This document shows, one piece after another, positions 477 to 3,589 of a stretch of 64,000 bases of DNA. The stretch comes from Candidatus Poseidoniales archaeon (GTDB lineage Archaea > Thermoplasmatota > Poseidoniia > Poseidoniales > Poseidoniaceae), in the NCBI GenBank assembly GCA_003602415.1, contig QQSK01000002.1, forward strand, positions 66,795 through 130,794. Reading direction: 5' to 3'. Positions within the stretch are counted from its first letter, which is position 1; the number at the start of each line of letters is the position of its first letter. The translations under genes and the position numbers were made by a program. Under the pieces are notes generated by a model. The model had not been told where the DNA came from and did not search any database. It worked only from the letters and a program-made list of their open reading frames with translations.

Positions 477-539
477 TTGTTTATTTTTCCCAAAAAAACC
501 GGGTAAAGTCTCTTTAAGTTGAAATTATTATTTTTTCTC

Positions 540-1196
540 ATGGGCAATAGTAAATGCAAGCATGAAAATTGCAATGCACTGGAATATAGAACAAGCGGTT
601 ATTGTCTTAAACACAAAAAGGCTGCTCCAGAGTCTATCTTCATAGTCACTTCTAATTTGGATGAAGAAGGAAATCAAATCCAAAAAAATAATCACCAATC
701 CTCAGACAATGTCGTAAATAACAAAAGTGATTATTCATCCAAACAAATTATTTTACCACTTAAACCAAGTTCAGGTAATGCGACAGCTGGGATTCTTGGC
801 ATTTCTGGATTTTGTTTTTTGATACTAGTCATAAATATAGATGAGATTCTGTTTGGTGATGGTGAAATATTTTGTTGGATTTGTTGTGGAGGATTATTTA
901 CGATAATTTTCATATTACTAAACTATTCAAATGCAAAGTCAAAATATGACAATGCTCGTGAAAAAGTGGTAATGGAAAAATTGGAAACAACAAAAAGTGA
1001 ACAAAGGATTCCAAAGAAGCCATCTGTTGCTTTAAGTTTCTTGAATGGTTTGTTTTTGATTTTGGCGATAATATTCATATTTAATGATGATATGATTTTC
1101 ATTTCATTCCTGTTTGGCACATTATTCTTGGTAACCTTCGTAGCTATATCGAGTGCGAATCGAGAATGGCAAAAATTCATCGACAATCATCTTTAG
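540..1196 (+). CDS. Membrane protein with N-terminal Cys/His cluster (CKHENC...CLKH)
   Basis: ORF with possible zinc motif C-x4-C-x10-C-x2-H and hydrophobic segments; ATG at 540 preferred over the TTG at 519. Confidence 0.6.
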   Translation: MGNSKCKHENCNALEYRTSGYCLKHKKAAPESIFIVTSNLDEEGNQIQKNNHQSSDNVVNNKSDYSSKQIILPLKPSSGNATAGILGISGFCFLILVINIDEILFGDGEIFCWICCGGLFTIIFILLNYSNAKSKYDNAREKVVMEKLETTKSEQRIPKKPSVALSFLNGLFLILAIIFIFNDDMIFISFLFGTLFLVTFVAISSANREWQKFIDNHL

Positions 1197-1248: not shown

Positions 1249-2043
1249 TTATTCTTCGTTATCGTTATTGGCCAAAATCAATTGCTTCAGTTCTGCAACT
1301 TCATCCCTTAGTTCGTTGATTAAACCTGAAATCCCTTCATCATCGCCACCTTCTTCAATAGATGCCATTGTATTCGTAAATACCGCAATGAACATGTTAA
1401 GGAATGTGAATGAGGTGCTAATGATGAAACTGACAAAGAAAAATGCAGCCCACCATCCTTGCTCATCAATAATCAATCTAGCAATTCCATTAGACCAAGA
1501 CTCCAATGTCATAACTTGGAATAATGAATAAAGAGACAGACCTAAACTACCAAAGTAGGTTTCTCCTGCAGGACCTCCATCTGAAAACATCATTGTTGCT
1601 AGTACTGAAAACACATAGATAACAATACAAAGCAACCAACTAATTGCTGCAATACCTCTCAATGAACGAAGCATTGCTTCAACCATTCTCTGCATCTCAG
1701 GCATACTGGAAACCAACCTCAGAGCTCTGAAAACTCTGAATACACGAAGAGTGCTTAATGGACCAGTAGTTGGTGCCAATGAAACCAGGATAATGACAAA
1801 ATCAAAATTGTTCCATGGGTCACTAAAGAATTTGTAACTATGCCCATATAATCTAATTACCAATTCAATTATGAAAATCCATAGAATTATTGTATCTGCA
1901 AGATGAAGAGTGTCCATAATTTCATCAGGCCAATCAAAAGTTTCCAATCCAATAGTAACAGCATTTATCACAATCAAAATCAAAATGAAATATTGAAATT
2001 TCAGATTCTCAGAAATTTGATAGCACTTCTCACGGTAATTCAT
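1249..2043 (-). CDS. Voltage-gated ion channel, bacterial NaChBac/BacNaV-like
   Basis: Six-TM architecture, S4 TLRVFRVFRALRLVSS (R-x2-R-x2-R-x2-R), pore MTLESWS, S6, C-terminal coiled coil INELRDEVAELKQLI. Confidence 0.88.
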   Translation of the reverse strand: MNYREKCYQISENLKFQYFILILIVINAVTIGLETFDWPDEIMDTLHLADTIILWIFIIELVIRLYGHSYKFFSDPWNNFDFVIILVSLAPTTGPLSTLRVFRVFRALRLVSSMPEMQRMVEAMLRSLRGIAAISWLLCIVIYVFSVLATMMFSDGGPAGETYFGSLGLSLYSLFQVMTLESWSNGIARLIIDEQGWWAAFFFVSFIISTSFTFLNMFIAVFTNTMASIEEGGDDEGISGLINELRDEVAELKQLILANNDNEE

Positions 2044-2065
2044 AATTACACCTAATCCTTCAAAA

Positions 2066-3589
2066 TTAAATCATTTCACTCGATTCTAAAACCGGTCTCT
2101 TCAAACTAGGAGAGAAATCAACCAATTTAGCCCAGACTGTAATTTCATCTCCTTCTTTGTGACTGAGTATCTTTTCATCAAAGGCTACTGGAATTTTGAT
2201 GACTCCCACATATGGTCCACCATCGATTAAACCATGAACGGATTGACCGCTACGATAAACTGGGTCTCCAATCAGTGTACGTTCCATCTTTTGGATCTTC
2301 AAATTGACTAGGAATTCACTGGTTTGTGTTTCCATCAATGTGCGTCTTTCACTTGAGAATTTAGCTTCTTCCATCTGCAAAATAAATCTTTCAAGATCTG
2401 TGTCAATACCCTCAGATAAATCTCCTTCTGAAGAATGTAGTTCCTCTACAGAATGTGCTTCATTTTCTTGATGGATTCTCGCTTCTTCCTCTGCCTGTAA
2501 TCTAGCGGCTTCTTCGGCTTGCAATCTTGCATCTTCCTCGGCTTGTAATGTAGCTGATTCGTCTTGCTGTGAATCGTCATGTTCAACATCAACTATTGAC
2601 TCATCTAATTCCACTTCTTCCAGAACATTATCAATTTCATCATCGCTATATTCACCTTCAGATTCTAATTCAAATCCTAAATGTACCCACATCTGATTCA
2701 ATTCGTTTTCATCGAGTTTGCCATCACCATTTGAATCGAATTGTTTGATTGCATCGGTTACAATAAATGCAGGGACGGCAAATCCTGTTGCTGCAGTCAT
2801 TGCTCCCGCAATTTCAGTAGCGTCTAACTTTCCATCCTTGTTGAAATCTGCGACCTCCATCAGAATCTGTGGAGTTAGGTTGCGTTCTTTGATTTGCTTA
2901 GAAATTTGGTCGAGAACTACATTGTGAGCAACTTCTGTTGCAGTTTCTCCTGATTCATTAGCAGGTATTCTAGAATTGATTTCATACTTGCCCTGTTCAA
3001 TATTCTCTTGTAATTTCTGCCTTCCCTGTTCACGTAATTCTTCTGCTCTGGCTACTGCCTTCTCTCGACTACTTTGAATAATTCTTGATGTGGCCACACC
3101 CGCTATTCCACCAGCTGCAGCAATCGCACCAAGTTTTAGTCCTTTTTTGGCAATATCAGAATTGTGTAATGCCTCAATCTTTTGAGTTCTTGAACCACTA
3201 TCAAATCCATACGCACTAGATAGAACATCCAATTCAGATTGTTCGAGTTGTTCCAATGGTTTACCATCTCTAACCTGCTTGATCACTCTAGACAAAATCT
3301 GATTTGACGGGTTGTTATAGTCGGCGGCTGATGCTTGAACATTTTCAGCACCCTGAGTCATCCATTTCCATTCACCTGAACTATCTTGCTTGAGAACCAT
3401 TTTACCATCTGAACTAACAGCTGAGCCAGAGGATGCGACTGAACCTGCAACAAGACCAAATATGCCGAATAAGCAACAAAATGTACCTAATCCTGGAGAT
3501 AAAGCGGTCAAGAAGAAACTACCTGCAATCAATACCCAACTGCTAGATTTAATCCAACTTAGAGGATTATCTTCTCCCGACATGGTCAC
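2066..3589 (-). CDS. Membrane-anchored EF-hand protein with octapeptide repeat
   Basis: Two canonical EF-hand loops (DFNKDGKLDATE, DSNGDGKLDENE), N-terminal hydrophobic segments, Glu/Ala-rich repeats. Confidence 0.75.
   Translation of the reverse strand: MTMSGEDNPLSWIKSSSWVLIAGSFFLTALSPGLGTFCCLFGIFGLVAGSVASSGSAVSSDGKMVLKQDSSGEWKWMTQGAENVQASAADYNNPSNQILSRVIKQVRDGKPLEQLEQSELDVLSSAYGFDSGSRTQKIEALHNSDIAKKGLKLGAIAAAGGIAGVATSRIIQSSREKAVARAEELREQGRQKLQENIEQGKYEINSRIPANESGETATEVAHNVVLDQISKQIKERNLTPQILMEVADFNKDGKLDATEIAGAMTAATGFAVPAFIVTDAIKQFDSNGDGKLDENELNQMWVHLGFELESEGEYSDDEIDNVLEEVELDESIVDVEHDDSQQDESATLQAEEDARLQAEEAARLQAEEEARIHQENEAHSVEELHSSEGDLSEGIDTDLERFILQMEEAKFSSERRTLMETQTSEFLVNLKIQKMERTLIGDPVYRSGQSVHGLIDGGPYVGVIKIPVAFDEKILSHKEGDEITVWAKLVDFSPSLKRPVLESSEMI
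2456..2551 (-). repeat. Four tandem 24-bp units encoding [T/R]LQAEE[D/A/E]A
   Basis: TLQAEEDA-RLQAEEAA-RLQAEEEA-RIHQENEA read from the CDS. Confidence 0.75.

Follow-up and report, generated by a model that had tools for sequence, protein, structure and literature searches.

Genes and features of the locus

The window, that is, the whole stretch of 64,000 nucleotides of Poseidoniales DNA that was analysed, carries two neighbouring open reading frames (ORFs) on its minus strand, 1249-2043 and 2066-3589. As the original prediction had it, they are separated by a gap of 22 bp. The features of the two genes are listed below.

1249..2043, minus strand: BacNaV-type voltage-gated channel, 264 aa with an ATG start (ORF, Ion_trans match, Foldseek, 36-38% identity to NavAb, NavMs and NaChBac)
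1717..1746, minus strand: S4 voltage-sensor arginines R100, R103, R106 and R109, invariant in a 19-sequence alignment and in NavAb, NavMs and NaChBac
1492..1509, minus strand: selectivity filter TLESWS (residues 179-184) with N at the seventh position; all 23 archaeal tree sequences read TLESWS with N or H as the next residue
1258..1329, minus strand: C-terminal helix, a predicted tetramerising coiled coil (AF2 helix 239-262, NavAb-like tail)
2044..2065, minus strand: 22-bp junction; the region upstream of the channel lacks the TTTAWA-type box present at -27/-28 in eight stand-alone loci
2066..3583, minus strand: EF-hand protein, 505 aa from a likely ATG at 3583 (ORF, EF-hand_1 match, 14-sequence alignment)
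2813..2848, minus strand: EF-hand loop 1, DFNKDGKLDATE, residues 248-259 (EF-hand_1, alignment)
2702..2737, minus strand: EF-hand loop 2, DSNGDGKLDENE, residues 285-296 (EF-hand_1, alignment)

The EF-hand ORF was first listed as 507 aa with a GTG start at 3589; this GTG is probably two codons early, because the alignment with the relatives begins at the ATG at 3583. The two ORFs and their motifs are not a product of chance, yet they encode two separate proteins of known type.

Identity and architecture of the channel

The Pfam family Ion_trans matched residues 16-231 of the channel with 157 bits (E 8e-46). Pairwise alignment gave 38% identity to NavAb, 38% to NavMs and 36% to NaChBac, and the three reference sequences were verified against their PDB copies. 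An AlphaFold model built from the 19-sequence alignment reached a pLDDT of 79, and its best Foldseek matches were NavMs (6sx5) and NavAb (5vb2). According to the Pfam match, the model helices and the fold match to NavMs and NavAb, the protein contains a single Ion_trans domain with six segments and a pore loop. The top PDB match by phmmer was a T-type Ca2+ channel, which was rejected as an artefact of summing four domains; Foldseek preferred the bacterial channels. The PDB sequence matches likewise supported the identity as a channel.

The S4 segment, LRVFRVFRALRL, carries the four arginines that had been claimed for it, spaced by three. Residues N27, F57, E60 and D81 were common to the channel, NavAb, NavMs and NaChBac in the alignment, and the gating-charge path included, as in these three proteins, a phenylalanine and a glutamate in S2 and an aspartate in S3. 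The filter TLESWSN conforms to the BacNaV pattern TLExW with the Glu of the EEEE ring. It had been described as identical to that of bacterial Nav channels, which is correct for the six residues TLESWS of NavAb and NavMs (TLESWSM) but does not extend to NaChBac (TLESWAS) or to position 7, which is N here. The claimed C-terminal coiled coil was supported by the predicted helix 239-262 and by the tail NELRDEVAELKQLI, which resembles the NavAb tail IKLREEIVELKELI. These results demonstrated that the channel is a one-domain, six-segment protein of the BacNaV kind, in agreement with the predicted NaChBac-like identity in an archaeon. By its sequence features, it would assemble as a homotetramer and would be voltage-gated, opening on depolarisation.

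The EF-hand protein

The Pfam family EF-hand_1 matched the second protein with 38 bits (E 8e-10), and the main Ca2+ ligand positions of both loops were invariant in the 14-sequence alignment, confirming two canonical EF-hands at 2813-2848 and 2702-2737. The description of their carrier as a membrane protein was borne out less fully; the basis for a membrane location was hydropathy together with low-confidence predicted helices at residues 9-30 and 35-52. The model of this protein was poor (pLDDT 61, pTM 0.23), and the EF pair, whose fold resembled a calmodulin lobe in a weak Foldseek match, was its sole interpretable part. It is a separate Ca2+-binding protein and probably membrane-associated.

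It is encoded by a core gene of the genus, present in nearly all of 27 members, mostly at 40-60% identity. The window genome encodes about eight to ten EF-hand proteins; therefore, an EF-hand neighbour of the channel needs no special explanation. As a separate observation, the C-terminal ~120 residues of the protein (2066-2440, minus strand) recur alone in many other Poseidoniales proteins, with matches confined to residues ~390-504, and no Pfam match to this part was found.

Distribution of the channel

A search of 319 genomes from the order Poseidoniales yielded a full or near-full copy of the channel (E below 1e-60) in 37, and no strong copy was detected beyond the order in a wider sample of the phylum. 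The relatives were all metagenome-assembled genomes, mostly 55-95% complete. Within the window's genus, three of 27 members carried the channel, namely the window genome, G009 (75% identity) and G007 (about 46-47%). The G007 channel (L086, G007:C74:4137-4892) grouped in the other subclade with the channels of a different genus, which reflects either horizontal transfer or misbinning. This patchy spread indicated that the channel is an accessory gene that moves alone, being gained, lost and moved singly, and that its clade is confined, among the genomes searched, to Poseidoniales.

Viral or mobile carriage was considered as the cause of the patchiness and was rejected: sequence and alignment-pattern searches of 2.9 million viral contigs found no relative, and only one partial match to a phage record was obtained. 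This match (MT835812.1:16518-16976) lies near the end of an unannotated faecal 'Bacteriophage sp.' record, has 38% identity to the channel and is perhaps bacterial DNA. In addition, a second, distant Ion_trans family was observed in other Poseidoniales (L133, G070:C27:236590-237078, and similar proteins), with 25-32% identity over part of the channel.

Gene neighbourhoods in the relatives

We compared 23 channel loci from several genera. The EF-hand gene was adjacent to the channel in one of them, the window's own, and no canonical EF-hand ORF was found beside the channel in the other 22; the nearest exception was a single-loop ORF ~4 kb from the channel in G126/G123. The channel neighbourhoods differed between genera and represented several unrelated settings. 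The original prediction had proposed to look for the pair across related archaeal genomes and had named its absence there as evidence against a functional module; the pair was not conserved.

In the relatives, a tRNA nucleotidyltransferase gene precedes the EF-hand gene, and a cupredoxin gene in convergent orientation often follows it. The order EF-hand gene, cupredoxin gene, DCC1-like oxidoreductase gene was complete and without a channel in G019 and G010, which thus represent empty sites. The place that the cupredoxin gene holds in the relatives is taken in the window by the channel and a membrane ORF of 225 aa (519-1196). The closest channel, that of G009, is followed by the cupredoxin and DCC1 genes and preceded by triosephosphate isomerase and other genes; the G009 EF-hand gene lies on a different contig, whose end cuts the gene, so that the following sequence was not seen. 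A genus tree calculated from four flanking genes had support too weak to time the insertion or to settle whether G000 and G009 are sisters.

Two further observations were made in this region. The ORF 519-1196 (plus strand) shows a cluster of Cys and His residues at its N-terminus and roughly four hydrophobic segments; it yielded no Pfam match above the cut-off and no homologue in the loci examined. The contigs of several genus members (loci L085, L087, L089, L093 and L096) stop within or near 2 kb of the EF-hand gene, which suggests that the region varies between strains.

The junction and co-transcription

In eight stand-alone channel loci, a TATA-like TTTAWA-type box was located 27-28 bases before the ATG and scored 16.5-19 bits on a matrix built from these same eight loci, five of which are near-copies in two groups. 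No such promoter-like box was found before the window channel, where the score was -1.5 bits, a value reached by about 2% of window positions. Several other stand-alone channel loci likewise had no TTTAWA-type box, and no general TATA signal was clear among the window genes. With no such box in front of it and a gap of 22 bp to the EF-hand gene, the channel probably depends on the promoter of that gene for its transcription. The co-transcription claimed earlier is thus plausible for this one genome. Such read-through, as judged from the sequence, would be silent on function.

Ion selectivity and probable role

Previous studies have reported that the Ca2+ selectivity of CavMr and CavAb is tied to a Gly at filter position 4 or to extra acidic residues (PMC7041947). 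In the archaeal filters, neither a Gly at position 4 nor added acidic residues were found, position 4 being S and position 7 N or H. Because these features of prokaryotic Ca2+-selective filters are absent, Na+ selectivity is the best guess, and the filter suggests that the channel is probably Na+-selective. The alternative, a Ca2+-selective or non-selective channel, would find some support in position 7, which is N or H here and M in NavAb, and in NsvBa, a natural BacNaV that is non-selective (PMC4225499); we consider it unlikely, given a filter without the extra acidic residue or the glycine at position 4 (PMC7041947). In alkaliphilic Bacillus, channels of this kind provide voltage-gated Na+ re-entry in a Na+/H+ cycle (PMC4225499). 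By analogy, the Poseidoniales channel likely serves voltage-gated Na+ entry as part of such a cycle.

Origin of the gene pair

Nearly all relatives use the EF-hand protein in the absence of the channel; therefore, the two genes are read as neighbours by insertion and not as a Na+/Ca2+ sensing device. We are highly confident in this explanation, in which an accessory BacNaV channel, probably Na+-selective, was inserted beside a genus-core EF-hand gene. The channel would have entered between the EF-hand gene and the cupredoxin gene convergent with it. Lacking a promoter-like box, it would be transcribed from the promoter of the EF-hand gene and may have become co-transcribed with it. The homotetramer would then open on depolarisation and admit Na+.

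Three other explanations were weighed against insertion. The first accepts that the pair was born by insertion and proposes that the two proteins now cooperate in the window species only. The missing promoter-like box and the tight spacing agree with such a coupling, but the pair was observed in no other genome and tight spacing is common, as 13 of 49 window ORFs are separated by less than 20 bp from the ORF upstream; this coupling is very unlikely. It is likewise highly improbable that the channel lost its own promoter and then became functionally linked to the EF-hand protein, which would make it a young, lineage-specific, Ca2+-linked voltage-gated channel.

The second is the dedicated two-component excitability module of the original prediction, in which the EF-hand protein would sense Ca2+ and regulate the channel or be regulated by it. 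It is consistent with the shared strand, the 22-bp gap, the likely read-through transcription in the window genome and the canonical, conserved EF-hand pair. These points are outweighed by the adjacency in one of 23 channel loci, by the genus members that keep the EF-hand protein without a channel, by the empty sites in G019 and G010, by a filter that is not of the Ca2+-selective type and by the about eight to ten EF-hand proteins of the window genome. A Na+/Ca2+ module is without evidence, because the comparison with relatives shows no conserved pair; we regard it as scarcely probable, and a tempting but unsupported operon story is thereby removed.

Finally, a chimeric assembly join between the EF-hand gene and the channel is extremely improbable: several relatives' contigs stop just after the EF-hand gene, which shows that the region assembles badly, but the window contig is 160 kb long and keeps the genus synteny on both flanks, and the DCC1 gene is a near neighbour of the EF-hand gene in G019 and G010 and of the channel in G009.

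Relationship to known systems

In a maximum-likelihood tree, the channel was placed within the BacNaV family, as the original prediction had proposed to do. All 23 archaeal channels formed one clade (support 100/98) with two deep subclades, separate from the bacterial sequences sampled. This clade was sister to the group holding NavAb and NavMs, with a support of 89/85 for the join in a tree that did not include an AnclNav reference. The filter read TLESWS(N/H)G throughout the 23 sequences, with N at position 7 except for H in three rows. A BacNaV survey mentions archaeal members for the AnclNav group only (PMC7041947), and our literature search found no paper on BacNaVs in marine archaea. The new part is modest, namely that BacNaVs with a canonical filter form a well-supported clade in planktonic marine archaea. 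Abundant marine plankton thus carry a monophyletic archaeal BacNaV branch with the canonical Na+ filter, patchy across genera and genomic sites. These channels are useful distant homologues for structure-function studies and raise the question of what purpose a voltage-gated Na+ channel serves in a planktonic marine archaeon.

The EF-hand protein resembles the calmodulin type in its two canonical loops and, weakly, in the lobe-like fold of the pair; unlike calmodulin, the pair is embedded in a 507-aa protein (as first listed) with an N-terminal hydrophobic hairpin, an acidic linker and an unassigned C-terminal beta domain. The channel shares the BacNaV superfamily with the AnclNav group (CavMr, NavPp), which has archaeal members on record (PMC7041947), but the filters of that group contain Gly4 or additional acidic residues, neither of which occurs here. 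NaChBac of the Bacillus group has the same architecture, 36% identity and a similar coiled-coil tail; it differs in its filter, TLESWAS, and lies on a separate long branch. NavAb and NavMs differ from the channel in the low identity of 38% and in position 7 of the filter, which is M in both and N or H in the archaeal clade, but they share with it a six-segment subunit, the S4 arginines, the gating-charge partners, the TLESWS filter and, as predicted, the C-terminal coiled coil.
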